58,609 nucleotides of DNA from a bacterium MS4. GTDB taxonomy: Bacteria; Bacillota; Clostridia; Oscillospirales; Acutalibacteraceae. This document shows positions 3,244 to 17,436 of the stretch, piece after piece. Within the stretch, counting starts at the first letter, position 1, and each line of letters starts with the position of its first letter. A program made the translations under genes and the position numbers. The notes beneath the pieces were generated by a model, which saw only the letters and a program-made list of their open reading frames with translations, was not told where the DNA came from and ran no database searches. The stretch covers positions 1 through 58,609 of the forward strand of contig CCFG01000015.1 in the NCBI GenBank assembly GCA_000752215.1. The letters are read 5' to 3'.

Positions 3244-3269
3244 GCTTCACCTCCTGTCCGTCTGGTTTT

Positions 3270-3300
3270 ATATTACACTATGACACGATGTCAGGGTCAA
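3270..3300 (-). promoter_or_regulatory. MerR-type promoter/operator with 19-bp spacer
   Basis: On the minus strand there is TTGACC (3300-3295), a 19-bp spacer and TAATAT (3275-3270). Inside the spacer lies the perfect dyad TGACA-CGA-TGTCA (plus-strand reading, 3281-3293). Over-long 19-bp spacers with a centred dyad are the hallmark of MerR-activated promoters. This one drives the TipA-like gene directly downstream. Confidence 0.85.
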
Positions 3301-3395
3301 TCCTTTTTTTGAATTTTCGTTTGACATTCCGGTAAAGAAAACATTGATACTGAAATCAGAAAAAAGGCATATTGCTGGGGTTATTTCGGAAATAC

Positions 3396-3419
3396 AAAAA
3401 GCACCTCCGAAGAGGTGCT
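3396..3419 (-). terminator. Terminator of the MetE-like gene
   Basis: AGCACCTC-TTCG-GAGGTGCT followed by TTTTTG on the minus strand, 22 bp after the stop codon. The hairpin is identical to the one after patB at 604-623. Confidence 0.88.
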
Positions 3420-3441
3420 GAGCACAGATGCAATTATGGAA

Positions 3442-4578
3442 TCAGAATGGTCCCCAGACTTCTTCGGCGATTTCTCTGATCCATCTGATTTTGGACCACT
3501 GTTCCTCCTCGGTGAGGATGTTGCCTTCTTCGGTGGAGGCAAAGCCGCATTGCGGGCTCAGGCACAGGCGGTCGAGAGGCACATAGGCAGCAGCTTCGTG
3601 AATGCGGGCGATAACAGCCGCCTTATTTTCCAGCTTGGGGCCTTTTGAAGTAACCAGGCCCAATACCACCAGCTTTTCCCCCGAGACTTTAGCCAGAGGG
3701 GCAAAGTCCCCGGAACGGTCGTCGTCAAATTCCAGATAATAGGCACCGACATTTTCGCCGCCGAACAGGATATCCGCTACCGGCGCGTAACCGCCGCTGG
3801 TAGCCCAGGTGGAGTGATAGTTTCCGCGGCACACGTGCGTATTAACGGTAAGATCGGCGGGCAAATCCGCAATGGCATCGTTATTCAGGCGCAGGTAAAG
3901 CTTTTGCAGCGCATCCGGGCTGTATCCGCTGCCGGCCATGCCGCTCCAGAACTTCTCATCGCAGAGCATTCCCCAAGTGCAGTCGTCCAGTTGCAGAACG
4001 CGGCAGCCGGCCTCGTACAGGGCAAGAATAAAATCACGGTATGCGGCGGACAAGTCCCTGTACAGCTCTTCCCGATCCGGATAGACAGCGTCCAGGAACC
4101 GTTCGTTTTCCCCGCGAACCAGCTCCGCAAAGCACTGGGCGGGAGCGGGAATCGTCTGCTTGATAAGAGCCCGATCGCCAACGATATCCCGTAAAAACCG
4201 GTAGTGGGCAATAAAAGGATGCTGGGAAAAGCGGATTTTCCCACTGACTCTGGCGGAATCCGCCCGGGTTTCTTCCCCGTGGAAAAAATACCCATGCTCC
4301 AATACCACATGGTCGATTCCATCCAGCCCCCACATAAAGTCCAGATGCCAATAGCTGCGGCGAAATTCCCCATCCGTCACACAATGGAGTCCGGCCTCAA
4401 TCTGCTTTTCCACAAGCGTGCGGATGCAGTCATCCTCAACAGCGGAAAGCTGCTGCTTTGATAATGTACCGTCGGTGAAAGATGCTCTGGCTTCCTTTAA
4501 AGCTTGTGGGCGCAAAAAGCTGCCGACAATATCATATCGAAACGGCGCGGTCGTACGTGCGGTAAACTGTGTACTCAT
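3442..4578 (-). CDS. Cobalamin-independent methionine synthase-like protein (YxjG/YxjH type)
   Basis: A 378-aa protein matching the C-terminal catalytic half of MetE, as in the stand-alone YxjG/YxjH group. It opens with the substrate-loop-like FRYDIVGSFLRP. It carries DGEFRRSYWHLDF, the zinc-ligand region NTHVCRGNYHSTW, and the C-terminal LCLSPQCGFAST with the last zinc cysteine. Full MetE is about 750 aa, so the N-terminal half is absent, as is normal in this group. Such proteins probably transfer a methyl group to a thiol acceptor, but the methyl donor is not settled. The start ATG 4578 has a good AAGGAG. It lies about 97 bp downstream of the LysR gene on the same strand. I saw no S-box or T-box upstream. 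Confidence 0.88.
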   Translation of the reverse strand: MSTQFTARTTAPFRYDIVGSFLRPQALKEARASFTDGTLSKQQLSAVEDDCIRTLVEKQIEAGLHCVTDGEFRRSYWHLDFMWGLDGIDHVVLEHGYFFHGEETRADSARVSGKIRFSQHPFIAHYRFLRDIVGDRALIKQTIPAPAQCFAELVRGENERFLDAVYPDREELYRDLSAAYRDFILALYEAGCRVLQLDDCTWGMLCDEKFWSGMAGSGYSPDALQKLYLRLNNDAIADLPADLTVNTHVCRGNYHSTWATSGGYAPVADILFGGENVGAYYLEFDDDRSGDFAPLAKVSGEKLVVLGLVTSKGPKLENKAAVIARIHEAAAYVPLDRLCLSPQCGFASTEEGNILTEEEQWSKIRWIREIAEEVWGPF

Positions 4579-4675
4579 AATTTCTGTCTCCTTATCATTG
4601 GATTTAAATTAATAATACACAAAATACCCGGTGATGTGTTAATTGATAATTTCAATTCTTTGTAATAGACAAAAG

Positions 4676-5587
4676 CTATCGCTGCTTATAAGAAGCAATA
4701 TAGTCCCGCAGCAGGGCGATATACCGTTCACTAATCGCTCCAAGCGGGTAGCCTTCTTCACAGAGATAGCCGATTTCCATCGTCTCCCCGCTCTCCAACG
4801 GAATGGACACGATCTCGTTCCCGTTAAGGTCGCTGCTGAGAATACCGGAAGAAATGGTGTACCCGTCCAGTCCGATCAGGAGGTTGAACAGCGTTGCCCG
4901 GTCCGTCACCACAATGTTTTTCGGGCTGAGTTCCACGCTGTGCAGTTCTTCGGAAAAATAAAAAGAATTGTTGCCCTGTTCGTAGCTTAACCGCGGATAT
5001 GGCTCCAGATCATTCAGCGTAACGGACGCTCTTCCGACCAGTGGATTTTTTCTGCTGACAAAAACATGGGGACTCGCCGTAAACAGCGGAACAAAGCGCA
5101 GTTCGTTGTTACGGATCATCCGCAGGATTACTTTCCTGTTGAAGTTGCTCAGATAGAGGATGCCGAGCTCGCTCCTGCGGGTGCGCACGTCTTCAATAAT
5201 GTCATAGGTGCGCGATTCCCGGAGGGAAAACTCATACCTGGTTTTTCCGTATTCCCGGACCAGGGCCACAAACGCATTGACCACAAAGGCGTAATGCTGG
5301 GCGGAAATGGCAAACATTCTGCGCGCAGGCGCTCCGTGTTTATACTGCTGTTCCAGAAGCTCAGCCTGCTGCACCACCTGACGGGCATAGGATAAGAATT
5401 TTGTTCCCTCCTCCGTCAGCAGAACCCCTCGGTTACTGCGGAAAAAGAGGAATACACCCATCTCTTTTTCCAGTTCTGCAATCGCTTTGGAAAGGCTGGG
5501 CTGCGTAACAAAAAGCAGCTTCGCGGCCGTGTGAAAGGACCCCGTCTGCGCGATTGTAATCACATATCGAAGCTGTTGTAATGTCAT
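4676..5587 (-). CDS. LysR-family transcriptional regulator
   Basis: A 303-aa LysR protein. The N-terminal winged helix (LRYVITIAQTGSFHTAAKLLFVTQPSLSKAIAELEKEMG) is followed by the linker helix and a type-2 periplasmic-binding-like effector domain from about residue 90. The ligand cannot be read from sequence. It lies on the same strand as the MetE-like gene downstream and may regulate it. LysR genes more usually face their target divergently, and here the divergent side holds only the terminator region of the glycyl radical enzyme. The start ATG overlaps an AAGGTGATG ribosome site. Confidence 0.92.
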   Translation of the reverse strand: MTLQQLRYVITIAQTGSFHTAAKLLFVTQPSLSKAIAELEKEMGVFLFFRSNRGVLLTEEGTKFLSYARQVVQQAELLEQQYKHGAPARRMFAISAQHYAFVVNAFVALVREYGKTRYEFSLRESRTYDIIEDVRTRRSELGILYLSNFNRKVILRMIRNNELRFVPLFTASPHVFVSRKNPLVGRASVTLNDLEPYPRLSYEQGNNSFYFSEELHSVELSPKNIVVTDRATLFNLLIGLDGYTISSGILSSDLNGNEIVSIPLESGETMEIGYLCEEGYPLGAISERYIALLRDYIASYKQR

Positions 5588-5832: not shown

Positions 5833-8361
5833 TCAGCGGAAGGTCTGCTCCGTACGGCTGATGATATCGTCCTGGACCTCTTTTGCCAGTACCACAAAGT
5901 GCGCGCTGTAACCGGCGACACGCACCACCAGATCCCTGTAATCGTCGGGATTTTTCTGAGCAGCCAGCAGGGTCTCCCTGTCTACGACATTGAACTGGAT
6001 GTGCTGACCTTTATGGTCAAAATAGCTTCTGACAACGGAGGCGAAATTCTTTAGTCCCGTATCCCCCGCAATGGCTGAGGGCAGGAATTTCATATTGTAA
6101 AGGCTTCCGTTGGAAACGAGCGTATGGTCCAGCTTGGCAACGGAATTCGCCGCCGCTGTGGGCCCTTTGACATCTTTGCCCGGTCTGGGGGAACAGCCGT
6201 CCGCCAGGGGCTGCTTTGCAAGCCTGCCGTCCGGCATAGCGCCGACGTCCTTTCCGAACAGGACGTTTGCCGACACCGGATAAATCCCCGGCTGGAAGAG
6301 ACCGCCGCGCGGATTCCGGTACTTTTCAACCTCTTTGCAGTAGAGCAGCGCGCACTTGCGGGCGATCATATCGATCTCGTCAATGTCATTTCCATAACAC
6401 GGCGTGCTGTCCATCAGCCTGCGGATATACTCATAATCCCCTGCGGGCGGAGCTTGGATCTCCGCCATTACCCGGTCTCTGAGAGAGGCCAGATCAATTC
6501 CGCAGTGGCATCCCGCCAGCTTTGCAAGAGCCTGGTACATTCTTCTGTCGATTTCCTCCTCCGTCAAAGAGGAGGCCGGCCGCACGCCGCCGTCGCCATA
6601 ACCGAAGTTCGCGTCCATCGCTTCCTTCAGCCGGGAGAGCGTAATGTTTTTATCTTCAAAAACATTTTTCTGTATCGCATAAACGGAGTCGCCGCAGTCG
6701 GCAACGCCGAATGCCTGCGGACCGGTAAAGTTGTAAACGGCTCCGCCCTCCTGCAGCGATTTGCCTCTGGCGATACAATCATCCACCAAAGCGGAAAGGA
6801 ACGGCAACGGACATCTTTCCGTATGTGCGACATCCACGCAGTTGTCCGCCTCCGCCACATAATAGACAAAATACTCAATCTGCTTCTTAAACGCCGCGAA
6901 CAGGTCGTCGGTGGATTTCCATTCGGTCGGGTCCCCCGTGACGGGCCCGAGCTGTTTTCCGCCGGCTTTTCCGTTGTTGAGGGTGATTTCCAGTATCTTG
7001 GCGACATTGACGAAAGCGGCGTCATGCCATCCGTCCGTCTTGTGGGGACACTGCGGCTCCACACAGCCGATCAGGGCGTAATTGCGGGCGTCCTCCAGAG
7101 AAACGCCCCTGTTTTCCAGTGCCGGAATGATGACCTCGTCATTATACATGGCCGGCACACCGAGTCCGAGACGGGCAAGCTCGCACGCACGGTAAAGGAA
7201 TTCGTCCGGAGTCCCCTGCCATACGCGGATCGAGAAGGAAGGCTGCGGCATCTTCACGGCGGCACAGGCATCCATACAAAGGTAGGACAGCTCGTTGGAT
7301 GCGTCCATCCCGCCGGGGGTCTGCCCGCCGACGCAAAGGTTCTGGAACCCGCCGTAACCGGCGAACGCCTGTGCGGAAACCTCGTCGCGGATTTTGCTGA
7401 CGTCATTGAACTTGACCCACAGGCAGTGGATCAGCTCTTTCGCGAAATCCTCGGTAAGCGATTTATCCGCGGCGTAATACGGATACATATACTGGTCGAA
7501 GCGCCCGGGGGAAACAGAATGGCCGCTGGACTCGATCTGGATCATGGCCTGAACAAACCAGAACGACTGGCAGGCCTCGTAGAAATTGGTCGCACCGTAT
7601 TCCGGCACCCGCTCACAGTTGCGGGCGATCTGAAGAAGCTCCGTTTTCCTGACGGGGTCGGATTCGGACGAGGCCAGCTCCTTCGCCTTAGCCGCGTACC
7701 GGTGGGCGAACGTGATCGCCGCGCAATATGTAATGATCAGAGCATGGTAGAACTGCTGGGTTCTTACATAGTTGGGGTCCAGCTTATCCAGCTTTTCCAT
7801 CGCGTTGACCGCTTCCGCAAGGATTCCCCGGAAGCCGATCTTCAGCACCTTGCCATAGTCGGCGTTCACATGGCCGACTCCGCCGAAAAAGTAGTTTCCG
7901 ACGGTAAATACACCGGATGCCATCGCGTCCTTTGCCTCCTGCGACATATAGGAGGCGGCCAGTTCGTTGACCGTCCTGCCTTTCCAATAGGTAAAAACGT
8001 CATGGAGCTCTTTTTTGGTCTGCCCGGAGATGAGGAAAGGATCGGCCAGACGGTCGGTCATGGTATCAAATTCCTTTTCCACCCATTCACAGGAAAATTC
8101 GGGATAGATTCCCGCCGAACGCGGATTCTTCGTCATGGAACCGACGATCAGCTCGTCGTCACGGATCGTCACGGGCAGCTCGTTGAAAATCTTCTCCGCT
8201 GCCTTTGCACGCCTCATGATGATAGGGAGTCCCTCTGTTTCCTTATAGGACTCGGTAATCAGAATAGCGCGCTCAGATTCCACACAGGGTTTGGCATGAA
8301 TAATCATGTCTTTCAGACGTTCTACTCTGGCGGTCGGTTTGGAAAATCCTTTTTCTAACAC
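5833..8361 (-). CDS. Glycyl radical enzyme, diol (propanediol/glycerol) dehydratase type
   Basis: An 842-aa glycyl radical enzyme. The C-terminal RVAGYSAHF holds the radical glycine (Gly817). GCVEPQ holds the thiyl cysteine Cys433 and the base Glu435. I start at GTG 8361 because AGGGAGGT lies 7 nt upstream; the longer TTG start at 8406 has no ribosome site. With this start His164 (GGVGH), Ser282 (SSGHS), Cys433, Glu435 and Asp447 fall at the numbers I remember for B12-independent glycerol dehydratase. That supports a diol dehydratase over pyruvate formate-lyase or choline lyase. Phe339 occupies the place where I recall a tyrosine in glycerol dehydratase, which hints at 1,2-propanediol. No activating radical-SAM enzyme, aldehyde dehydrogenase or microcompartment gene is adjacent, which is unusual. 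The substrate assignment is inference. Confidence 0.85.
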   Translation of the reverse strand: MLEKGFSKPTARVERLKDMIIHAKPCVESERAILITESYKETEGLPIIMRRAKAAEKIFNELPVTIRDDELIVGSMTKNPRSAGIYPEFSCEWVEKEFDTMTDRLADPFLISGQTKKELHDVFTYWKGRTVNELAASYMSQEAKDAMASGVFTVGNYFFGGVGHVNADYGKVLKIGFRGILAEAVNAMEKLDKLDPNYVRTQQFYHALIITYCAAITFAHRYAAKAKELASSESDPVRKTELLQIARNCERVPEYGATNFYEACQSFWFVQAMIQIESSGHSVSPGRFDQYMYPYYAADKSLTEDFAKELIHCLWVKFNDVSKIRDEVSAQAFAGYGGFQNLCVGGQTPGGMDASNELSYLCMDACAAVKMPQPSFSIRVWQGTPDEFLYRACELARLGLGVPAMYNDEVIIPALENRGVSLEDARNYALIGCVEPQCPHKTDGWHDAAFVNVAKILEITLNNGKAGGKQLGPVTGDPTEWKSTDDLFAAFKKQIEYFVYYVAEADNCVDVAHTERCPLPFLSALVDDCIARGKSLQEGGAVYNFTGPQAFGVADCGDSVYAIQKNVFEDKNITLSRLKEAMDANFGYGDGGVRPASSLTEEEIDRRMYQALAKLAGCHCGIDLASLRDRVMAEIQAPPAGDYEYIRRLMDSTPCYGNDIDEIDMIARKCALLYCKEVEKYRNPRGGLFQPGIYPVSANVLFGKDVGAMPDGRLAKQPLADGCSPRPGKDVKGPTAAANSVAKLDHTLVSNGSLYNMKFLPSAIAGDTGLKNFASVVRSYFDHKGQHIQFNVVDRETLLAAQKNPDDYRDLVVRVAGYSAHFVVLAKEVQDDIISRTEQTFR

Positions 8362-8646
8362 GTTATTGACCTCCCTTACAAAATGAAACACTTCTTCTAT
8401 ATACAAGACTACTTGCCATCTATCATTATATAGAATTCTTTACGGAGCAGGGAGCGAAATCCAAACCATTAAGCAATAAATTCCAAACCAGAAAAATGAG
8501 TGCATGACAACTTTAGTGAAAAATCCAGACATTATATCCACTTAAAATTTTAACATTTTTATACAAAGCCTTTACCTGGGGCCATTCATCCTGCAGCCTG
8601 AGCTTTTCCGCCGACAGGGCAATTATCACCCCCTCATTTCTATTGA

Positions 8647-8680
8647 TAAAAAACGAACAGACCGGGTTTTTCCCGATCTG
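8647..8680 (-). terminator. Terminator of the GNAT acetyltransferase gene
   Basis: On the minus strand the 9-bp stem CAGATCGGG/CCCGGTCTG (one G-U pair) has loop AAAAA and is followed by TTCGTTTTTT. It lies about 55 bp after the GNAT stop codon. The rest of 8362-8733 holds no convincing gene. Confidence 0.8.
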
Positions 8681-8733
8681 CTCCATCCCTTTATACGCTT
8701 TAAAAAGGCAGGTCCGCCGTCGGTTTTCCGCCT

Positions 8734-9300
8734 TCAGCGCCGGCCGCCTGAGATATTTTGACGCCACTGCTCCTTTGTAATGCAGGAAAAGTGCGTTATA
8801 CGGGTTTCATGCATCAGCGGGCATAGCCTGCTATGCTCGGTATGATGATAGACAAACCCGCATTTCTCCTGTACCCGCCGGGAGCGGTCGTTTCCCTCAT
8901 AATAGCCGCACCAGAGGGTTTTCAACCCGAGGTCCTCGAAACCGTGCCGCATAAGTTCCCGCACGGCTTCGGGGATAAGCCCTCTTCCCCAGAAGGGCAC
9001 GCCGATCCAATAGCCGATCTCTCCGCTGCCGGTTTCCAGAGTCCACCCATCCTCCTCGGAGGAAATCAGGCCGATACTGCCGACCGGGCGGCTGTCCCCT
9101 TTCAGGGCGACGGCATAGGTTTCCTCTTTAGAAAGAACATCCCTGATAATCTCTCTGCTGTTATCAACGCCGGTATGTACCGGCCAGCCGGCGATCGGCC
9201 CCACGCGGGGGTCCCGGGCATATTCATACAGCGCCTGCGCGTCCTCCATATGCCACGGCCTTAAAATCAGCCGCTCGGTTCTTAATATTGTCTCAGCCAA
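8734..9300 (-). CDS. GNAT-family N-acetyltransferase (RimJ/RimL-like)
   Basis: A 188-aa acetyltransferase. It begins with the RimJ/RimL-like LRTERLILRPWHMEDAQALY, then GYWIGVPFWGRGLIPEAV, which is the acetyl-CoA pyrophosphate-binding loop. LWCGYYEGNDRSRRVQEKCGFVY follows, the typical C-terminal motif of the fold. Members acetylate protein N-termini, small amines or antibiotics; the substrate cannot be named here. The start appears to be TTG at 9300, after AAAGGAGTGG. It lies just beyond the terminator that ends the upstream TnpB-like operon, so it is probably transcribed separately or by read-through. Confidence 0.88.
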   Translation of the reverse strand: MAETILRTERLILRPWHMEDAQALYEYARDPRVGPIAGWPVHTGVDNSREIIRDVLSKEETYAVALKGDSRPVGSIGLISSEEDGWTLETGSGEIGYWIGVPFWGRGLIPEAVRELMRHGFEDLGLKTLWCGYYEGNDRSRRVQEKCGFVYHHTEHSRLCPLMHETRITHFSCITKEQWRQNISGGRR

Positions 9301-9322
9301 TTTGTTTCCACTCCTTTTAGAA

Positions 9323-9366
9323 AAAGCCCGAGCCGGGAAGGAACTTTCCTTCCGGATCAGGCTTTA
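9323..9366 (-). terminator. Terminator closing the TnpB-like operon / guide-RNA region
   Basis: The 8-bp core stem GGAAGGAA/TTCCTTCC (9336-9343 with 9346-9353) is extended by imperfect outer arms AAAGCC/GGCTTT. On the minus strand it ends in GGGCTTTTTC. It begins about 16 nt after the putative end of the RNA scaffold, so it would define the 3' end of a short guide. Confidence 0.8.
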
Positions 9367-9503
9367 TTTAAATAGCTACACTTGAACGGTTACCCGTTTC
9401 CGCTCAGCGGAATCGCTCTGCACACGGGATTGCCCGCATGTGCGGAATCATGATGCGGTAGCTAATGCACCCAAAACAGGAATTCACCTCAAAAGCAGGT
9501 GAA
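9366..9503 (-). ncRNA. Candidate omegaRNA-like guide RNA at the 3' end of the TnpB-like gene
   Basis: Read on the minus strand, the region starts with a 7-bp hairpin over the stop codon (TTCACCT/AGGTGAA, 9483-9489 with 9497-9503). Next come a CCGCA/TGCGG hairpin (9434-9445) and a two-storey hairpin. In the latter CCCGT/ACGGG (9393-9397 with 9424-9428) encloses TTCCGC-TGA-GCGGAA (9398-9412). The structured part ends in GTAACCGTTCAA at 9382. TnpB omegaRNAs similarly overlap the tnpB 3' end, end in a hairpin plus a TTCAA-like tail, and are followed directly by the guide. Here the guide would be about 16 nt, 9381 down to 9366, beginning GTGTAGCTATT, before the terminator. The fold is seen; the function is inference. 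Confidence 0.55.
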
Positions 9504-11025
9504 CGGATTTCCGCAGGTCGGGCGCCTGAGCAAGCTTTTTCCAGACGGCGTACCTTTTGGAATCGTCGATATAGGTTTCCCGCATTCTGCCGATAAAACG
9601 GCCGAGCTCCTCAAACATCGGCGTATAATCCGTCGTGTCCGGCGGAAGCTCGCACCGGAAGCCGAGAATTTTATTGCAGCAAAGAAAACCGTCCTCTTTT
9701 TTCGAGACCGTGATGGGGACCTTGTCGCTGTGATATTTGTCCAGCCTTTTCGCAAGGTTCTCGCTTCCGACCGTCTCAAATTCAGCCGCGTATCCGCAGT
9801 GGATACACGCGAAAAGCTCCTCAGTTACACGGTTTCTCTGCGTCCTTGTCCCGCAGCGGGGACAGGTGAGGAAAAGGCCGTTCGAGCTCACCTCGACCGG
9901 CGGCGGCAGACCTTTGCCGGGCAGCTTGTATTTCAATTTTTGAGCAAGCAGCAGATAATCCCGGACTGAAAAACAAAGCTCCCGGTTCTGTGCGGGAACG
10001 GGCATCCGGTCGTTTTTTCCGCCGTTTGCCTCCAGCACCACCTGAGCGCGGTTCTTTGCCGCGATTTCCGCAATCGTATTGGACAAGTCGGGAGAGTTGC
10101 TCTGCTTCCGGCACGCGGAAATCCGTTTTCTTTCCCTGACGCCGCCGCCTTTATCGCAGATCGTATAACTCAATCCCCCATGAACGCCGCGCGCAACCCC
10201 CATGGTCGTGACCGCTTCCCTGGTGATCTGACGGCACTCGATATTGACCATCAGATAATACTGCCGGTCTTTTTTGACCAGCCGGGAGGAATGCAGCAGG
10301 CGCGGATTTTTCAACGCTTCCTTCAGGTCGGCGTACTGCTCTTTTCCAAAGGCCAGCGGAACGACGATATATCTTCTCTGCCCGGGCAGATTGCTCATGA
10401 AGGGCATCCCGTCCCAGACATATTTCAGGCTGAGCCCGCTTGCGCAATACCCGCCCGGAATACTGTTCGCCCGGTTCATCAGATACAGCTTCGCATAGAA
10501 ACGGTCCTTAAACTCATCGTAAAGCAGGCAGTAATCGCGGTTCATTGCGTACCGGCCGAAATAGACGGACCGCAGCTTTCCCGCCTTATCCACCAGCTTA
10601 AAGGAGCGGTGCTGAAACCTTTGCGGGCCGATCTCTCCGCTGTCAAACTGCGCAACGCAGTCCGACATTGCGCGGGAATAGCTCTGGGCGTCCAGAAAAG
10701 GAAGAGGATACCCGGTTTGGGGATGATTTTGCCTGCGCGCAAGATAGGAGGCGGCGACGGCGGAAAATTCCAGCAGCAGGGAATCCTTAAAAGGCTGTAT
10801 GTCGAAGCGGTTCAGGCTTTTGGCGGTTTCCCTGTCGATCATTTTCAGGATCAGATGCTGGGTAATATCGGTCTCCGATTTAGAGAGCTCTATAATTTCA
10901 TTTCGATAGGTATCCATCAGGAACTGCAAAGCCTGGGAATAGCGCAGCAGGGCCGTATCCATCAAATCCCGTTTCTGTTTTCCGGGCTTATAAAGCTGAA
11001 GCATCAGCGTTTTAAAAATCATCAT
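9484..11025 (-). CDS. TnpB-like protein with inactivated RuvC site (candidate TldR-type RNA-guided regulator)
   Basis: A 513-aa TnpB/OrfB homologue. The N-terminal part (KTLMLQLYKPGKQKRDLMDT) matches the TnpB start. The RuvC core has its first motif as MGVARG, with Ala278 where the catalytic Asp belongs. The second motif is VVLEANGG, with Glu332 kept. The zinc ribbon CPRCG...CIHCG (Cys388, 391, 407, 410) is intact. The third motif is SENLAKRL, where TnpB has D-x-N-A-A; Ser421 replaces the Asp. It should therefore not cut DNA. About 85 extra residues follow the RuvC domain, and the protein is longer than the usual ~400 aa. No tnpA or transposon end is visible. It starts 30 bp after the SpoIIE-like gene, so it belongs to the sensory-hydrogenase operon. 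Nuclease-dead TnpB proteins (TldR) are known RNA-guided repressors; that role here is inference. Confidence 0.8.
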   Translation of the reverse strand: MMIFKTLMLQLYKPGKQKRDLMDTALLRYSQALQFLMDTYRNEIIELSKSETDITQHLILKMIDRETAKSLNRFDIQPFKDSLLLEFSAVAASYLARRQNHPQTGYPLPFLDAQSYSRAMSDCVAQFDSGEIGPQRFQHRSFKLVDKAGKLRSVYFGRYAMNRDYCLLYDEFKDRFYAKLYLMNRANSIPGGYCASGLSLKYVWDGMPFMSNLPGQRRYIVVPLAFGKEQYADLKEALKNPRLLHSSRLVKKDRQYYLMVNIECRQITREAVTTMGVARGVHGGLSYTICDKGGGVRERKRISACRKQSNSPDLSNTIAEIAAKNRAQVVLEANGGKNDRMPVPAQNRELCFSVRDYLLLAQKLKYKLPGKGLPPPVEVSSNGLFLTCPRCGTRTQRNRVTEELFACIHCGYAAEFETVGSENLAKRLDKYHSDKVPITVSKKEDGFLCCNKILGFRCELPPDTTDYTPMFEELGRFIGRMRETYIDDSKRYAVWKKLAQAPDLRKSVHLLLR

Positions 11026-11055
11026 GCCATTTCATCCTCAAAAAGTGCAGTCATC

Positions 11056-11733
11056 TTACGTCGCGCGAAGGCAGCTGATCCGGAAGGCCAGCGCCGACAG
11101 ATCGCTCGCCGGTTTTCCGGAAGAAAGGGAACTGCCCGCGGCAAGAAGCAGCCGGACGGGGTCTTCGGCCGACATCCGGGAATCGTAGGCATTCGCCATA
11201 TAGGTTTCTATATTTTTTAAATTCCAGCCGTCCTTCAGCTTTCTGTTCTTTCCGGCGGTCAGCATCCCGTTGCCGACCGCGACGATCATATCCGCTTTTT
11301 TTGCCGTTATCTTCCCGCTGCGGATGGTTCTGCCCTGCACGGCCCTTTGGGTCGTCTGCAGCTCAACCGGTCTGCCCCTGCGGAGCAGGATCACGTCGGG
11401 CGTTTCAAACTGCTCCACCCGGATCGTTCCGTCGAAAAGCGCGAGGATCAGCGTAAAGGCGATATTCCCCGCCTTCCCCTTTTTCCCGCCGGACGGCTGG
11501 GATTCCGCAATCATATCGGCGACCCGGTCGATGGATGCGCCGCTGCCGCGCATCGCCACCATCATCTTTGCGGCAAAAGAGGTCAGGAGGCTTGCCCTCG
11601 CCCCGCCGTTTCTTCCGTCCGCAAGAATCGCCGCGACGCCGGACTCATCACGTACGATTCTGATCTGATCGTCGCAAAGGCCCTCATGATACTTGGGAAC
11701 GGAATCGCTGTACGTCTCAATGCTGATGTCCAT
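11056..11733 (-). CDS. SpoIIE/PP2C-like protein of a hydrogenase sensory operon, probably catalytically impaired
   Basis: A 225-aa single-domain protein of the SpoIIE branch of PP2C phosphatases, which dephosphorylate Ser/Thr in partner-switching pathways. The frame is clear: DDQIRIVRD, ILADGRNGG with Asp39-Gly40, VEQFETPDVILLRRGRP, and GW at 169-170. The motif normally written SDG is GNG here, so Asn155 replaces a metal-binding Asp. The later D-D pair is reduced to a single Asp211. It may be a weak enzyme or a pseudophosphatase that only binds. Its start overlaps the end of the sensory hydrogenase gene by 17 bp and has GGAGG 6 nt upstream. Similar pairs of PAS-hydrogenase and PP2C genes are known from Clostridia. 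Confidence 0.78.
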   Translation of the reverse strand: MDISIETYSDSVPKYHEGLCDDQIRIVRDESGVAAILADGRNGGARASLLTSFAAKMMVAMRGSGASIDRVADMIAESQPSGGKKGKAGNIAFTLILALFDGTIRVEQFETPDVILLRRGRPVELQTTQRAVQGRTIRSGKITAKKADMIVAVGNGMLTAGKNRKLKDGWNLKNIETYMANAYDSRMSAEDPVRLLLAAGSSLSSGKPASDLSALAFRISCLRAT

Positions 11734-13444
11734 TTTTGTCCTCCGCTCCCGGAACGATATTTTCGGTCAGCTGAAGCAGCGCCACCTTTGTTTCACAGGT
11801 TGTTTCCCCGAGAAGGTCGGCGATTTCCTGCACTACCCGCATTTGTTTGTTGACGACCTCCCTGGCAAAGGCGGCGGTTTTCTCCGTCACCTTCCGCTGT
11901 TCGTCCAGCACCTGCTCCTGCTGGGTAATATCTTTCAGAAGCACAAAAATCAGCTGGTTATTGCTCACATGAACCACCGTCTGCTCCAGAATAAGCCCGA
12001 GTTCCTTGTAATACTGCTTATGGTTCAAAATGTTTTTGCCGGTTTGAAGGACCTCCTCAAAATCCTTGCTGGGAAGGAGTTCTTCAACGGGAAGCCCGAC
12101 GCAGTCCTTTCCGAGCTTCAAAAGCTGAGTGGCGGAGGGATTGATCTGCTCGATTTGCAGATGGTCGTTGATGACCAGAATTCCGGTGGGTGTGTGTTCC
12201 ACGACTGTATTGGACATGCTTTCGGCCAGCTCGCGCATATAAGGGATACACATGTTGATGTTCGCTTTTCCCTGCAGCACCGCAATCGCTTTTTCGCGGC
12301 AGGTGTTGTACCCGCAGCAGCCGCAGTTCAATTCCTTCTCCGGCGAGGTTTTTCCGGTTGAAGCCAGCACGCTGCGGATTTTCTCCTCGTCGATGATTTC
12401 CTTTTTCGCCGAGCGGTTCCGGAACCTTTTCGTAAACTGGGACGCAACCCCTTCCGTAAGGGCGGGCGGAGCTTCATTCGCCCGTTTCACATTATCGACC
12501 AGCACATTTTTGGCGTTTAAAAAGCTGAGATTCATCAGCTTGAGAATCGGGCCTCCCAGGCATCCCCCGGAGCAGGCGTTCAACTCCAGAAAATAGCCGG
12601 AAAGGTTGTCGTGCACGACGGAATCCAGAATTTCAATGCAGCGATCCACCCCGTCGACGCTCAGGCATTCGTAAGTACTCCGCTCTTTCCGGTGAAGATT
12701 TTTGATAATGCCCCCCGGCGCGGGATAGTAGCGGGGCAAGGTGTTTTTCAGAGTGCGGCTGTTATGGTCGTCCTGTGAAAAATTTACGTTTTCTTCGCGA
12801 AACCATTTTTCCAGTTCGTCAAATGTCAGGACCGAAAACAACAGATTTCCGTTATCGGGGTCCACGCATTCGTACTTTTTGGAGATGCACGGCCCGATAA
12901 AAACGATTTTGGCCCGGATACCGTAAATCTGTTTGATCATGCGCGCATGCGCGATCAAAGGGGTCACCACCGGCGCAAGCTGATGAATCAGCGACGGATA
13001 ATTCTTTTCGATCAGCAAATTTACCGACGGGCAGGAGGTGGTAATGATATTCTGCATTTTGTGTTCGCGGATCAGCTTTTCATATTCCCGGGTAACCTGT
13101 TCGGCGCCGATCGCCGTTTCCTCCACATGGGCAAACCCCAGTTGCTTCAGCGCTGCGGACATCTTCGCGATGCCGGTTTCGGGAAAGGCTGCAATATAGG
13201 AAGGCGCCAGGGACACATACAGCTTTTCACCCGCACGGATCGCCTGTTTCACCTTGGAAAGATCGCTGTTGATATATTTCGCGTTCTGCGGACAGATCAG
13301 CAGGCAGTTTCCGCAATAGATACATTCGTCGCCGATAATATGAATCTGCTCGTTCCGGTAGGCAATCGATTTTACCGGACAGTTGCGAATGCACTTATAG
13401 CAGTTCTTACAGTTTGATTGATTTAAACCAATAATTTCTTCCAT
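11717..13444 (-). CDS. Sensory [FeFe]-hydrogenase with PAS domain (HydS-like)
   Basis: A 575-aa protein. Residues 10-60 hold two 4Fe-4S ferredoxin motifs (CxxCxxCxxxCP twice). The H-cluster domain follows, with TSCP (Cys138), PCISKKYE (Cys186) and CSGGCLGG (Cys291, Cys295). A further CGCCGYNTC...C iron-sulfur motif lies near 374-399. A PAS domain spans about 405-508 and ends in a coiled coil. The proton-relay cysteine that precedes the first H-cluster ligand in catalytic enzymes is Ser137 here, as expected for a slow, sensing enzyme. The start is ATG 13444, with GGAG 8 nt upstream. It heads the minus operon with the PP2C-like and TnpB-like genes, divergent from a second hydrogenase. Likely role: reporting H2 or redox state to the PP2C-like partner. 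Confidence 0.88.
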   Translation of the reverse strand: MEEIIGLNQSNCKNCYKCIRNCPVKSIAYRNEQIHIIGDECIYCGNCLLICPQNAKYINSDLSKVKQAIRAGEKLYVSLAPSYIAAFPETGIAKMSAALKQLGFAHVEETAIGAEQVTREYEKLIREHKMQNIITTSCPSVNLLIEKNYPSLIHQLAPVVTPLIAHARMIKQIYGIRAKIVFIGPCISKKYECVDPDNGNLLFSVLTFDELEKWFREENVNFSQDDHNSRTLKNTLPRYYPAPGGIIKNLHRKERSTYECLSVDGVDRCIEILDSVVHDNLSGYFLELNACSGGCLGGPILKLMNLSFLNAKNVLVDNVKRANEAPPALTEGVASQFTKRFRNRSAKKEIIDEEKIRSVLASTGKTSPEKELNCGCCGYNTCREKAIAVLQGKANINMCIPYMRELAESMSNTVVEHTPTGILVINDHLQIEQINPSATQLLKLGKDCVGLPVEELLPSKDFEEVLQTGKNILNHKQYYKELGLILEQTVVHVSNNQLIFVLLKDITQQEQVLDEQRKVTEKTAAFAREVVNKQMRVVQEIADLLGETTCETKVALLQLTENIVPGAEDKNGHQH

Positions 13445-13808
13445 CAAGCATGCTCCAAATAAATAAGAAAATCCAATTTATAATTCATGTTTTTTTATCC
13501 TACCACAAAACATTTGAAAAGGCAACGTCAGTGTTACCCAATTTTATTCCTTGTATTGTAAATATGGTTTTTTGTTTTGAGGGATTTCCCCGCCGAAAAA
13601 AGGATGCGATACCCCTGAAAACCCCACGGCTGATCGGGCTTTTTCGTCCATAGACAAATTGCGCCAACCACTGCTTCCACTCTCAGAAATATCTTGCGGC
13701 TCCAATTTTGTTGACGGTTTTTTCCTGCCGTGCTACCTTTACACTATTAGCGTGTGAATAATTTATCAATTGTAACTAAAGTTTCATAAAGAATAGGTGG
13801 GGTTTTAT
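13445..13808. other. Divergent intergenic region between the two hydrogenase operons
   Basis: This 364-bp AT-rich gap separates the sensory and catalytic hydrogenase operons and must contain both promoters. On the plus strand TTGACG is followed at 17 bp by TACCTT, a weak match. I found no convincing Rex-type dyad, riboswitch or ORF, and no match to the candidate guide GTGTAGCTATT. Confidence 0.5.
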
Positions 13809-14060
13809 ATGGTGATCGAAGTATACATTGGAAAACAGCTGCGGCAAAAGGCACTGGATGTATTAAAAGGGTTCCGCAGGCTGATTGAAGAAAATCATCT
13901 GGAGAACAGTGTCTCGCTCAACGCTTCGCTTTGTGTCGGGGATTTCGGCCGGTCCGGGATTCCGGTCAGGTTTGGAGAGAAATTTACCGATTATGTCTCA
14001 GCGGAAAATCTGGAAAATGTGTTCGGAGAATATGTTCTTCAGGCAGTCGGCCCCTGCTGA
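13809..14060 (+). CDS. Small NuoE-like (thioredoxin-fold) protein lacking most iron-sulfur cysteines
   Basis: An 83-aa protein with the pattern of the thioredoxin-like 2Fe-2S domain found in NuoE and HydC-type hydrogenase subunits. It has VEVYIG-like strands, VSLNASLCVGDFG and a terminal SAENLENVFGEYVL helix. Only Cys42 of the usual four ligands is present in the core, and the CxGxC cysteine is Phe46, so it probably binds no cluster. The start is ATG 13809, 6 nt after AGGTGGGG; the in-frame GTG at 13797 lies within that ribosome site. It is the first gene of the plus operon and ends 56 bp before the catalytic hydrogenase. The role is unknown; a small partner or docking subunit is a guess. Confidence 0.65.
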   Translation: MVIEVYIGKQLRQKALDVLKGFRRLIEENHLENSVSLNASLCVGDFGRSGIPVRFGEKFTDYVSAENLENVFGEYVLQAVGPC

Positions 14061-14116
14061 CCGGCCCCTGTTTTCCGAATGATCCGGGTTTGACTTGTGA
14101 GAGGGTGTGTAATTTG

Positions 14117-15532
14117 TTGATTTTTGATTCCAACGTACAGGAACTGAAATACAGGGTACTGAAAGAGGTGGTCCGGCTTTCGTCAAGGAACGAGCTTCCC
14201 GCAAAGCTGTATGATATTCCGCGCACAATCGTTCCGGGACCCAAAGCGACGATGCGGTGCTGCATTTACCGGGAAAGGGCAATTGTGGAGGAGCGCGTAA
14301 AGATGGCGATGGGCGGCAGCCCGGACAACAAAAATGTTGTAGAGGTCATCGATATTGCCTGTGAAGAATGTCCGAGCAAGCGCTTTCTGGTCACGGAAAC
14401 CTGTCAGGGCTGTATTGCCCACCGCTGCCAATCCGCATGTCCGGCGAAGGCGATCACGTTTGTAAACCATAAAGCGGTCATCGACCCCGAAAAATGCAAA
14501 GGGTGCGGCCAGTGCATGAGAGCCTGCCCCTATCACGCGATTACGGAGCAGGAAAGGCCGTGCATCAACGCGTGCAAAGCAAAGGCGATCTTACTGGACG
14601 AGCAGAACAAGGCGGATATCGATCCGGACAAATGCATCCGCTGCGGCGCATGTGTACGTCAGTGCCCGTTCGGCGCCATTGTGGATAAATCGTATGTTCT
14701 GGACGTTCTGCGAATGATACAAGAATCGAATAACGGGGAAAACTTCCGGGTATACGCCGCGGTCGCGCCGGCGATTGCGAGCCAGTTCTCCTACGCGAAG
14801 GTCGGTCAGGTGGCGGCCGGCCTGTACAAAATGGGCTTTAACCGGGTCGTTGAAGCGGCCCTCGGCGCGGACATCGTGGCGCACAAGGAAGCGGAGGAGC
14901 TCGTGGAAAAGGAGTTTCTGACGACCTCCTGCTGCCCGGCCTTTGTCCAGTATATCAAGGCAAATTTCCCGGAACTGGAGAACAATATTTCGAGCAATGT
15001 TTCTCCGATGGTCGAGACGGCCAGGCTGATCAAGACGGTCGACAAAACGGCGAAGGTCGTGTTCATCGGCCCCTGCATCGCAAAGAAAATGGAATTTCAG
15101 AAGGAAGAGCTCAAAGGTATCGTCGACAGCGTGATCACCTTTGAAGAGCTGCAGGCGATTTTCGGCGGTCTGGATATCCGTCTGGAAGAGCTGGAAGAAA
15201 GGAAGCTGAGCGACGCTTCCTACTTCGGCAGGATTTTTGCAAGGAACGGCGGCGTGACGGAGGCGGTTTCCAACGCGCTGGAGGAAAAGCATATCGATTT
15301 CCAGGTAGACCCGGCGATCTGCGACGGGCTGGAGGAATGCCGCGCCGCGCTGATCAAAGCCTCCAAGGGGAAGCTGGATGAAAACTTCATAGAAGGAATG
15401 GCCTGCGTCGGCGGATGCGCCGGCGGAGCCGCCTGCATCAGCCTGAACCACGCGGTTAAAAATAAAATGAACATCGACAATTACGCGAAGCAGGCACACA
15501 GAGAAATCAGTGAATTTGCGCCTGTAAGATAA
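14117..15532 (+). CDS. Monomeric [FeFe]-hydrogenase with ferredoxin domains
   Basis: A 471-aa hydrogenase. Residues 45-110 carry cysteine motifs ending CQGCIAHRCQSACP, and residues 125-190 hold two 4Fe-4S ferredoxin motifs (KCKGCGQCMRACP and KCIRCGACVRQCP). The H-cluster domain has TSCCPAF (270-275), PCIAKKMEF (319-327) and MACVGGCAGGAAC (428-440). All ligands and the proton-relay cysteine are present, so it should be catalytically active, making or consuming H2 with ferredoxin. The start is TTG 14117 (or 14114), about 10 nt after GAGGG; no ATG fits. The short ferredoxin-rich single-subunit layout matches the group often called B. It is the main enzyme of the plus operon and a natural target for the divergent sensor operon. 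Confidence 0.9.
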   Translation: MIFDSNVQELKYRVLKEVVRLSSRNELPAKLYDIPRTIVPGPKATMRCCIYRERAIVEERVKMAMGGSPDNKNVVEVIDIACEECPSKRFLVTETCQGCIAHRCQSACPAKAITFVNHKAVIDPEKCKGCGQCMRACPYHAITEQERPCINACKAKAILLDEQNKADIDPDKCIRCGACVRQCPFGAIVDKSYVLDVLRMIQESNNGENFRVYAAVAPAIASQFSYAKVGQVAAGLYKMGFNRVVEAALGADIVAHKEAEELVEKEFLTTSCCPAFVQYIKANFPELENNISSNVSPMVETARLIKTVDKTAKVVFIGPCIAKKMEFQKEELKGIVDSVITFEELQAIFGGLDIRLEELEERKLSDASYFGRIFARNGGVTEAVSNALEEKHIDFQVDPAICDGLEECRAALIKASKGKLDENFIEGMACVGGCAGGAACISLNHAVKNKMNIDNYAKQAHREISEFAPVR

Positions 15533-15561
15533 ATCTATCCACTCGATAAAGGAGGATTTCT

Positions 15562-15936
15562 ATGTTGGACTGTAAATTATGCGATTATTATCACGCGGTT
15601 TCCGGCCGGGATTTCAATGGGCTGGACCTCGGCATCTGCGATTTCACCGATCTTCTGTTCATTGAAGACGCCGAAAACATGACAGCCGAATATCCGTGCC
15701 GCGAAATGAGCTACAACGATTACCTTCGTAAAAAATCGGCGAACAGCATCGACCCTGCCGCGGCCGCGGAATTGGTCGACCCCGAAATGTTCCGGGAGCT
15801 GAAACAATGCGGGGTATCCATGATAAAATTTCCGGAAGGAATCATATCCAAATGCTTTCAAAAACAGCTGGATACGGAAACCAGCGGGACTCTGTGCGAA
15901 ACGCACGCTGATCTGGTGAAAGCCGCAAAAAGATAA
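15562..15936 (+). CDS. Conserved Cys-containing protein of the hydrogenase operon, unknown function
   Basis: A 124-aa protein I cannot assign. It starts MLDCKLCDYY, has a C-x2-C pair at 4 and 7, and further cysteines in GICDF, YPCRE and later positions. This suggests a metal or cluster site. No signal peptide or membrane segment is visible. AAAGGAGG lies upstream of the ATG, and it follows the hydrogenase by 29 bp. It is the last gene of the plus operon, ending just before a strong terminator. A role in hydrogenase function or regulation is inferred only from position. Confidence 0.75.
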   Translation: MLDCKLCDYYHAVSGRDFNGLDLGICDFTDLLFIEDAENMTAEYPCREMSYNDYLRKKSANSIDPAAAAELVDPEMFRELKQCGVSMIKFPEGIISKCFQKQLDTETSGTLCETHADLVKAAKR

Positions 15937-15979
15937 AAATTTATTTTGAAATTACTTTGAAAACTTAATAAGACTGATA

Positions 15980-16020
15980 AAAGGGCCGGAATCCTGTTCA
16001 ATGCGGGATTCCGGCCCTTT
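15980..16020 (+). terminator. Terminator of the plus-strand hydrogenase operon
   Basis: A perfect 15-bp stem AAAGGGCCGGAATCC/GGATTCCGGCCCTTT encloses an 11-nt loop. Confidence 0.88.
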
Positions 16021-16177
16021 CGCTGATTTCAAATAATTCTTCCTATGGCTAGAGAGTGTCTAGAAACTTGTCAGGAGTCGAGAAATCGTGCAAGACAAGG
16101 CAAGTGCATCCAACGGCAGTAAGCGAAATTGTTTCATAATTTTGCGGTTGTACAACTTTATCGACAGCCTGGTTGAA

Positions 16178-16198
16178 GAATCAACCGGAAATGCTGTA
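16178..16198. repeat. Partial copy of the 100-bp palindromic element end
   Basis: GAATCAACCGGAAATGCTGTA differs by one base from the end of copy B (GAATCAACTGGAAATGCTGTA at 32452-32472). Only this outer end is recognisable. The surrounding 16021-16212 holds no gene. Confidence 0.5.
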
Positions 16199-16212
16199 AG
16201 CCAAATTTCGTA

Positions 16213-16241
16213 TTGACATAACTGTATTACTGTATTAGTAT
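16213..16241 (+). promoter_or_regulatory. Promoter of the VanZ gene
   Basis: TTGACA (16213-16218), a 17-bp spacer and TAGTAT (16236-16241). It lies about 65 bp upstream of the VanZ start codon. Confidence 0.7.
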
Positions 16242-16253
16242 TATTAATACAGT
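16229..16253. promoter_or_regulatory. Operator-like dyad overlapping the VanZ promoter
   Basis: A perfect 9-bp inverted repeat ACTGTATTA/TAATACAGT with a 7-bp gap lies across the -10 box. An additional ACTGTATT half-site lies just upstream. It resembles sites of GntR (YtrA-type) or BlaI-type repressors. No such gene is adjacent. Confidence 0.6.
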
Positions 16254-16304
16254 TGAAAAAATAATCGAAGGATCATCATATTAGAAAAGTTTAAGGAGGT
16301 CTCT

Positions 16305-16823
16305 ATGGAAAAAAAAGAAAGCAGGCAGCAAATTCTGACAGGAAGCTTATTGGCTGTTTATCTGCTCGTAATGACCTGGATCATATTATTCAAGATGCAG
16401 TCGCCTTTTGGGCCGTTTTATCCCTTCCGCAGTATCAACCTGATCCCTTTTTATCAGTCGGTAGTCGTCAACGGCAGGATTGAATGGTCGGAAATCTACG
16501 GAAATATCCTGATTTTCGCCCCGTTCGGCCTCTATATCAGTATGCTGAAAAGCAGCTGGTCTTTTCTGAAGAAAGTCATCCCGATCTTCAGTGTAAGCTT
16601 CTTTTATGAGGCAATGCAGTTTATTCTGGCAGTCGGGGCGTCCGATATCACCGACCTGATCGGCAACACGTTCGGGGGAATCCTTGGGATCGCGGTCTAT
16701 GCCATTGCCCTCAGGCTGCTGAAAACACAGCGGAAAACCAACGCAGTTTTAAACACGATTGCGTTGGTCGGAACACTGCTGACCGTCGCCCTGCTGGCGT
16801 TTCTGACCGTATCAAATCTGTAA
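16305..16823 (+). CDS. VanZ-family membrane protein
   Basis: A 172-aa integral membrane protein with about four to five hydrophobic segments. The VanZ signatures are NLIPFYQSVVVNG, EIYGNILIFAPFG and the glycine-rich DITDLIGNTFGGILGI. VanZ of glycopeptide-resistance elements gives low-level teicoplanin resistance. Chromosomal members like this one have no established function. It has a strong AAGGAGG ribosome site and its own promoter with an operator-like dyad. It is single-gene and convergent with the PAP2 gene downstream. Confidence 0.88.
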   Translation: MEKKESRQQILTGSLLAVYLLVMTWIILFKMQSPFGPFYPFRSINLIPFYQSVVVNGRIEWSEIYGNILIFAPFGLYISMLKSSWSFLKKVIPIFSVSFFYEAMQFILAVGASDITDLIGNTFGGILGIAVYAIALRLLKTQRKTNAVLNTIALVGTLLTVALLAFLTVSNL

Positions 16824-16917
16824 AAGTCTATGGTTTACTGAGAAAGCCGGCAGGCAAAGGGTTTGAAAGACAGCGTTCAGGTCAGCCGGGAAAGAAACAC
16901 CGGATTTCCACAACGGA

Positions 16918-17436
16918 TTACACAAGCCAGAATCCGATGATGCCGGTCAGGACGCTAAACACCATACCGGCAATCACGTCTTTGGGAAAATGGATTCCGG
17001 CTAGGGGCCGGATAACGGCGATCAGCAGCGCGATCACCGACATTGCAATTCCAATGGGAGGCCAGATATACCAACAGGCAACCGCGATAATGGTCACCGA
17101 AGCTACGTGTCTGCTTGGAAAAGAATGCCCCCTCTTTTCGCGGGGAATCAGCGGTTCTATCCCCAGTTTTTCATACGGCCGCGGCAGATTCCAGAGCTTT
17201 CGCATCACGGTCACTGCGCCGAAAACGAAAGCCGGTATCAGCAGCACCTGAAAGAAGCGCTCATCCTTCCGAATGGCCAGCACCGCCAGCAGGACGGGAT
17301 ATGCGCAGTAAACAATTCGCGGCAGCCAGAGGTTTAGCAGCTTCATACTGCTCAACCATACCGGGTGAAGTAAAAACCATTGCCTGATTTTGTCATATCG
17401 TTCCTTATTCAATAAAAATATCCTTTCTGCGACCAT
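16918..17436 (-). CDS. PAP2-family membrane phosphatase
   Basis: A 172-aa protein with four or five hydrophobic helices and the three PAP2 phosphatase motifs. These are KLWNLPRP, PSRH in GHSFPSRHVAS (the usual PSGH has Arg for Gly), and IRPLAGIHFPKD with the catalytic His and Asp. Members hydrolyse lipid phosphates such as undecaprenyl diphosphate or phosphatidic acid; the small size fits the BcrC/YodM-like group. The start is uncertain. ATG 17436 lacks a clear ribosome site, and an in-frame TTG 27 bp later follows AGAAAGGA. Confidence 0.85.
   Translation of the reverse strand: MVAERIFLLNKERYDKIRQWFLLHPVWLSSMKLLNLWLPRIVYCAYPVLLAVLAIRKDERFFQVLLIPAFVFGAVTVMRKLWNLPRPYEKLGIEPLIPREKRGHSFPSRHVASVTIIAVACWYIWPPIGIAMSVIALLIAVIRPLAGIHFPKDVIAGMVFSVLTGIIGFWLV

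Follow-up and report, generated by a model that had tools for sequence, protein, structure and literature searches.

The 58,609-nucleotide (nt) stretch analyzed here (hereafter the window; contig CCFG01000015.1 of bacterium MS4, assembly GCA_000752215.1) carries on its minus strand, at 9484-11025, the gene of a domesticated, nuclease-dead protein of the TnpB/Cas12f fold, which we call dTnpB. Its ATG-initiated frame of 513 codons is intact, as the preliminary description of this DNA (made from the letters alone) had stated. The gene lies behind two others on the same strand, encoding an [FeFe]-hydrogenase with Fe-S and PAS domains (11717-13447, 576 amino acids (aa); a HydS-like putative H2 sensor in a group C3-like context) and a SpoIIE/PP2C-type phosphatase-like protein (11056-11733, 225 aa). 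The SpoIIE-like gene overlaps the HydS gene by 17 nt and dTnpB starts 30 nt past it. A conserved non-coding element begins directly 3' of the dTnpB stop codon, and a structured RNA (9364-9474, minus strand) is found there.

The fold of dTnpB was recognized through its relatives. Compared as a single sequence, the protein gave weak matches to TnpB families around the zinc ribbon (under the curated cut-offs) and reached E ~0.01 against chains of the Protein Data Bank; a profile of 33 dTnpB homologues matched Cas12f (9nzq) at E = 2.5e-13 and TnpB (9nzp) at 1.8e-9. The AlphaFold2 model of the homologue from locus L022 (32 sequences, predicted local distance difference test score (pLDDT) 86.6) was aligned by Foldseek to AsCas12f (7wju, E = 3.6e-15 over 484 columns), TnpB (8h1j, E = 4.5e-8) and a dead Cas12f (9n9c, E = 2.2e-7); it provides the fold evidence, as the window's own protein was modelled on five sequences only (pLDDT 47.4) and that model was left unused. 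The features of the TnpB/Cas12f superfamily are thus present, i.e. a RuvC fold with a compact N-terminal part and a zinc ribbon, whose four cysteines (Cys388, Cys391, Cys407 and Cys410 in the window) are kept in 33/33 homologues, in agreement with what had been noticed from the sequence. The C-terminal extension of about 85 residues, likewise reported before, starts at about residue 428 and is conserved in every homologue (84-96 residues); Pfam gave no match for the window's extension and only below-cut-off matches for that of L022.

Catalytic positions were placed by profile alignment to Cas12f 9nzq. The RuvC-I aspartate column falls on residue 278, an alanine in the window as first proposed, and an acid occurs there in none of the 33 homologues (Ser in 19, Ala in 8, Thr in 3, Gly in 2, Val in 1). 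The RuvC-II glutamate column corresponds to Glu332, which the preliminary description had listed as remaining; this holds for the window's own clade, and across the family the residue is retained in 10 of the 33 sequences and missing in 23 (Gln in 13, Tyr in 4, Lys and His in 3 each). For RuvC-III, an ungapped alignment from the fourth cysteine identifies Glu417 as the catalytic column (Glu in 19, Asp in 10, Lys in 3, Gly in 1), so that the earlier assignment of the D-x-N-A-A motif to S-E-N-L-A was a register error, Ser421 lying four residues past it. The D-E-D triad of active TnpB nucleases is therefore not found in this family, and the claimed selective loss of catalysis is genuine (RuvC-I is replaced in 33/33), with the details at RuvC-II and RuvC-III needing revision. 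We call dTnpB nuclease-dead because the RuvC-I aspartate is lost, a position that alone carries the conclusion.

The proposed linkage to a sensory hydrogenase and a SpoIIE-like protein was borne out by the neighbourhoods of the homologues: far from never being linked to hydrogenase genes, they showed the order HydS-SpoIIE-dTnpB, on one strand, in 27/27 distinct loci (24/24 loci of the genome collection plus the window, L009, L010, L011 and L012, with L010 and L011 repeating L014 and L015; in L016 and L028 the contig begins within HydS). The hydrogenase combines an H-cluster domain with PAS and is linked to a phosphatase-type gene, the combination that defines group C3 (an assignment by domains and context). 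Records with the operon bear the names Caproiciproducens, Christensenella, Ruminiclostridium, Caloramator, Petroclostridium, Anaerobacterium and Pseudobacteroides, and one is labelled Calditrichales; the dTnpB and RNA of the latter match a genome assigned to the window's class. HydS is broken into two frames (2850-4681) in L034, a metagenome-assembled genome whose adjacent dTnpB frame is open, with an ambiguous start.

The SpoIIE protein measures about 390 aa in most dTnpB loci (in the alignment, starts were picked to yield 390 aa; in L019, L023, L024 and L034 the longest frame starts earlier). The dTnpB-linked proteins of the window and L016 are without the C-terminal domain of about 165 aa found in these relatives, and in the window Asp154 is replaced by Asn; a second, full-length copy of the family is encoded elsewhere in the window's genome (contig C13, 55806-56978). 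Nineteen full-length sequences were aligned over the C-terminal domain, and the searches made for its L022 representative (9491-9985) returned no Pfam match to E = 1 and no NCBIfam match to 0.01. An AdhE gene is placed between SpoIIE and dTnpB in L017-L020 and L032 (e.g., L018:7379-9985), and the L018 promoters carry TTGTTAA/TTAACAA repeats that we take to be Rex-box-like.

Within the class, dTnpB occurs in 15 of 391 genomes and the SpoIIE family in 111, all 15 included. No relatives came up when the genome and viral collections were scanned with the single sequence; with the alignment, the genome scan yielded 24 loci and the viral scan none. No dTnpB relative was recovered from the viral, phage and plasmid collections searched, and a PF07282 search of the window's genome found no TnpB besides dTnpB. 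The frames are free of internal stops in 33/33 homologues (with the L034 start codon ambiguous), and the ratio of nonsynonymous to synonymous substitution rates (dN/dS) was 0.16 when the window was compared with the nearest homologue and 0.15 against its Caproiciproducens genus-mate C. faecalis (with dS near saturation), identity to distant branches of the clade being 30-36%. From this distribution, the constancy of the operon and dN/dS, we reason that dTnpB belongs, as a conserved, optional component, to a wider sensor system and is not a passing insertion, and that the earlier view of domestication without decay was sound.

The RNA behind dTnpB has a recurrent layout: a hairpin with a GCTGC or GCTAC loop, a CTTAC..GTAAG or TCCGC..GCGGA hairpin, an AAGTG(C/T)AGC-like strand, and then TATCT or TATTT. 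In the window (minus strand) these parts are the P1 hairpin (9472-9451), whose loop GCTAC (9462-9458) pairs with GTAGC (9379-9375) as a pseudoknot, and the P3 hairpin (9412-9398). The RNA is closed by a hairpin resembling a Rho-independent terminator with a T-run (9321-9364), seen by folding and absent from the consensus scan; such hairpins follow the RNA in nearly all loci folded (none in L060). RNAalifold, given 25 sequences, chose the loop-to-3' helix and P3 unaided, the former making a pseudoknot with P1. The pseudoknot helix is paired in 25/25 sequences with double changes from G-C to A-U in 5, and P3 is paired in 25/25 with double changes at 4 of its 5 pairs. Covariation score, percentage paired and number of cells with double changes were each reached by 0/500 shuffles, and sliding the pairing partner by 1-3 columns lowered the covariation score from 0.38 to 0.11 or less. 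The alignment omitted L017, L031 and L036 (long inserts or a misplaced start), the near-duplicates L009, L035, L055, L057 and L058, and L060 (missed by the pattern), all of which the covariance model found.

That model matched the window at 85.4 bits (its sequence being part of the model alignment) and recovered the RNA in 33 of 34 distinct dTnpB loci (40 of 41 sources, seven being the same locus twice as judged by identical scores), the miss being L034, where the contig ends 67 nt after the stop codon. Eight of nine dTnpB loci outside model building were matched (some of them near-copies of training rows), four sources devoid of dTnpB gave one weak match (E = 0.29), and in the window's genome a single strong copy stands beside three weak matches (E 0.08-0.82). 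In the 391-genome sample, strong matches (E up to 2.5e-14) coincided exactly with the 15 dTnpB genomes. Three further genomes gave weak ones (1e-5 to 1e-4; L086-L088), which we dismissed as probable false positives, each overlapping an open frame of 462-856 codons with no dTnpB in the 1.5-kb flanks; L087 and L088 have two broken P1 pairs and P3 is unaligned in L088, and as L086 keeps the model's pairs, its dismissal is the least certain. In seven loci the RNA was compared with Rfam and no family reached its gathering score, and window positions 7500-17000 gave two sub-threshold Rfam matches only, one of which reaches the end of the dTnpB gene on the opposite strand. In L016 a FuFi-1 RNA (RF02986; 4584-4795) was observed on the strand opposite to the dTnpB RNA, some 0.8 kb downstream of it.

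The letters that follow the pseudoknot recur in front of the operon. In the window the candidate guide would be TATTTAAATA (9365-9374, minus strand), immediately 3' of the pseudoknot strand, and the candidate target (13559-13571, minus strand) consists of AAAACCA (13571-13565), reminiscent of a target-adjacent motif (TAM), and TATTTA (13564-13559); this target is the only occurrence of AAAACCATATTTA in the window's genome. In L018 and the Caproiciproducens clade, the DNA before HydS has AAAAACCA and then TATTTA or TATCTGACAT, in each case the letters found behind the pseudoknot of the respective RNA. Sites of the form ACC(A/G/T) plus TATCT or TATTT were found upstream of HydS or of operons of the NuoE-NuoF-hydrogenase type in 16 of the 26 loci scanned (25 plus L035), 13 through the strict pattern and L026, L033 and L035 through a relaxed one. 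Proteins tested from L019, L022, L026, L029 and L031 identify the operons behind the sites as NuoE/NuoF/group A [FeFe]-hydrogenase, and the L030 site precedes an operon with NuoF and a glutamate-synthase/formate-dehydrogenase-like gene. The five loci with a site of the Caproiciproducens clade (the window's group, including L012 of another genus) have TATTT in guide and target alike, and the other 11 have TATCT in both. Matches of a guide to its target run over 5-10 nt from the first letter (mean 6.2; the longest own matches are 10, 8 and 8 nt), and exchanging guides among the 16 loci gave a permutation p of 5e-5, and of 0.008 within the TATCT group.

The site also tracks the protein, the exact 13-mer AAAACCRTATYTR lying within 12 kb of the locus in 12/18 genomes with dTnpB and in 0/25 with SpoIIE and no dTnpB (Fisher p = 1.2e-6, a value that ignores relatedness and contig ends and comes from a pattern built after guide and sites had been seen). 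Within 8 kb the counts were 8/18 and 0/25. The comparison covered 18 of the 20 dTnpB genomes (without G639 and G378) and 25 of the 96 SpoIIE genomes devoid of dTnpB, taken from the top of the list with two skipped and picked on SpoIIE, not on HydS.

At 21 sites we measured the distance between the start of the target and that of the -35-like hexamer. It was 52-54 nt at eight (L017, L018, L019 twice, L022 twice, L030 and L031), 50 nt in L011, 52 nt in L012, 41-42 nt at four Ruminiclostridium sites (L026, L027, L033 and L035), 39 nt in the window and L009, and 23 nt for the second of the tandem sites in L017, L018 and L022, with no clear promoter at a comparable distance in L010 and L029. Hence 10 sites fall at 50-54 nt, 4 at 41-42, 2 at 39 and 3 at 23; the site begins 23-54 nt ahead of the -35 start in 19/21 cases, and 39-54 nt ahead in 16/21. 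The distances of the window and L009 (tied-best hexamers), L031 (second-ranked) and L011 and L012 (poor -35) are softer for these reasons. In the window the hexamers are the weakly promoter-like TTGCCT-17-TAGGAT (13497-13525, minus strand; tied best score), 39 nt downstream of the target start, and genome G305 has TTGTCT-17-TAGGAT at the same distance. Sites at such spacings upstream of the -35 are typical of activators, unlike promoter occlusion. The site positions do not suggest a repressor, the role named for TldR in the preliminary description.

Taken together, we think it probable that dTnpB is a domesticated RNA-guided regulator, forming a ribonucleoprotein with its 3' RNA, acting at hydrogenase promoters and serving as the output of the phosphatase-linked H2 sensor. 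The structured RNA would provide an omega-RNA-like pseudoknot scaffold for dTnpB, and a short guide would be formed by what follows the pseudoknot, TATCT or TATTT with a variable stretch up to the terminator. The complex may then dock at sites of the ACC(A/G/T)+TATCTA type whose starts precede the -35 by about 20-55 nt, in front of the operon of the sensor itself and, for several species, of an electron-bifurcating hydrogenase operon too. It would tune transcription there, and activation or co-activation is more likely than repression by blocking the promoter. HydS would sense H2 and signal through the SpoIIE-type phosphatase to the complex of dTnpB and RNA that this operon also encodes, the two proteins probably setting its level or activity. 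Going further, dTnpB could be a vertically kept, TnpB-derived RNA-guided activator with its own pseudoknotted RNA and a guide of 5-10 nt, the output of H2-sensing phosphatase-linked hydrogenases in several clostridial families, with sites at roughly helical-turn spacing; this fuller version we offer tentatively, as possible. In these proposals the RNA binding, the pairing of guide and target (and with it DNA targeting), the sign of regulation and the control by H2 are predicted from sequence.

Several points weigh against this proposal. No site was found in 10/26 loci (L016, L020, L021, L023, L024, L025, L028, L032, L036 and L037; the contigs of L016, L028 and L036 are without part or all of the upstream region), and the exact motif is absent within 12 kb in 6/18 dTnpB genomes. 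The matches are short. Guides agreed with their targets no better than exchanged ones within the Caproiciproducens group, the window's own clade (p = 0.65), nor in either group when positions 6-10 were taken alone (p = 0.10 and 0.20), and the joint switch between TATTT and TATCT may be a single evolutionary event. A blunter test upstream of HydS gave the own guide a small excess (6.96 vs 6.07, 23 loci). The pattern also matches intergenic DNA away from the operons (L018 at 15495, L019 at 101, L021 at 4107, L037 at 14943), its genome-wide counts are often near those of the reversed-pattern control, and the window's promoter falls under the threshold of the consensus scan. On the RNA side, the number of pairs with double changes was equalled by 41/500 shuffles and that of further pair types by 500/500, P1 is paired in 72.7% of cells (partly from a one-column misalignment), and only a few nucleotides separate pseudoknot and terminator in some loci. 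An ordinary transcription factor could own the site, and the binding of the RNA by dTnpB, like an action of the SpoIIE protein on dTnpB, would be a proposal. The adhE gene was also considered as a direct guide target and rejected, since own guides scored 5.20 and others 4.99 (5 loci) and no site was found upstream of it; its control, if any, would then be indirect or via the Rex-like boxes.

Some of these points would be expected if dTnpB were a domesticated RNA-binding protein that does not target DNA, i.e. part of a riboregulator in which the RNA controls dTnpB or dTnpB stabilizes a small RNA, the sites belonging to an unrelated factor. The very short candidate guides with a terminator close behind, the non-significant agreement in the Caproiciproducens group and the TA of the window's guide, which could pair within the pseudoknot, speak for it. 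Against it stand the association of the motif with dTnpB, a match in register right behind the pseudoknot, the C/T co-switch and the extended matches, and we regard it as unlikely, if worth keeping in view. Unlikely too, in our estimate, is that the same ribonucleoprotein at the same sites represses hydrogenase or sensor transcription in the manner of TldR (TnpB-like nuclease-dead repressors), by blocking an upstream activator or RNA polymerase; the TldRs described in PMC13418256 are repressors and the tandem second sites 23 nt upstream of the -35 could hinder polymerase, but most sites (the 16 at 39-54 nt) lie off the promoter core. An active nuclease with a non-canonical triad would accommodate Glu332 in the window's clade and the Glu or Asp at the RuvC-III position in 29/33 homologues, and the counts over the catalytic columns (RuvC-I changed to S/A/T/G/V throughout, RuvC-II glutamate mostly missing) led us to reject it as highly improbable. 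The same holds for a decaying or hitchhiking TnpB remnant without function, a reading in line with the lost catalytic residues and the low incidence in the class and at odds with the uninterrupted frames, the constant operon position, the conserved RNA, and the absence of other TnpB copies in the genome (by PF07282) and of relatives in the viral, phage and plasmid collections searched; dN/dS of about 0.15 decided against it, leaving it barely conceivable. The RNA-guided regulator is thus the reading we retain.

The nearest known system is TldR, to which the preliminary description had likened the protein, and this RNA-guided reading has gained a conserved pseudoknotted 3' RNA and guide-like matches upstream of hydrogenase promoters. 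As TldRs are described in PMC13418256, the likeness extends to the TnpB fold, the dead RuvC, a cognate guide RNA beside the gene (here a putative one, a covarying scaffold adjoining dTnpB in 33/34 distinct loci), a short guide (a candidate in dTnpB) and linkage outside transposons; guides as short as 6 nt repress, and the TldRs are found with fliC or csrA, unlike dTnpB with its hydrogenase-sensor operon. Most dTnpB sites lie upstream of the -35, not over the promoter core, and the C-terminal extension of about 85 aa is a further difference. We class dTnpB as a TldR-like variant and not as a proven member, because its RNA binding and targeting are read from the DNA. Cas12f, including catalytically dead forms (9n9c, 9n9m), supplied the best fold and profile matches and shares the compact build and zinc ribbon, but dTnpB is accompanied by a single RNA encoded 3' of its gene. 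Window positions 8400-14500, the stretch to which the search for CRISPR arrays was confined, hold no tandem repeats, and the annotated neighbours of dTnpB include neither a cas nor a sigma-factor gene. The TnpB proteins of IS200/IS605 and IS607 elements share the fold and zinc ribbon, and their omega-RNA (right-end element RNA) is likewise located 3' of the gene, whereas dTnpB sits in a fixed place in a chromosomal operon with a dead nuclease; no transposase is among its annotated neighbours (TnpA was not searched for genome-wide).

On the sensor side, the succession of a PAS-bearing sensor hydrogenase and a SpoIIE-type phosphatase is that of the [FeFe]-hydrogenases known as group C3 (HydDB), HydS or HfsB, which differ in that the literature descriptions drawn on here include no TnpB-derived partner. 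Group C3 enzymes are presented in PMC5037454 as phosphatase-linked and of undetermined role, and in the account of PMC5707799 adhE transcripts and ethanol yield go up, by a route not known, when hfsB, the HydS homologue, is deleted. The dead-TnpB/RNA pair, with candidate sites before sensor and hydrogenase operons, offers a testable output for such sensors, and the presence of the SpoIIE partner family in 111 of the 391 class genomes indicates a sensor system wider than dTnpB. If the proposal is correct, gas sensing would be coupled to RNA-guided gene control, which would extend from flagellin and csrA contexts to metabolic gas sensing, possibly with a natural activator, and would tell with how few nucleotides a natural guide can work. 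Our literature search found no link between a TnpB-type protein and a hydrogenase sensor; the main TldR/TnpB surveys were outside this search, and an earlier mention of the clade is possible.

Two further features flank the operon. A monomeric [FeFe]-hydrogenase of group B1 (13931-15532, plus strand; TIGR04105, 576.6 bits, cut-off 450) is divergent from the sensor operon, and a 124-aa frame beside it (15562-15936) occupies the same place in L009-L012 with 54-90% identity. On the other side, a pyruvate-formate-lyase-like glycyl radical enzyme is encoded at 5833-8406 (TIGR01774, 815.5 bits).

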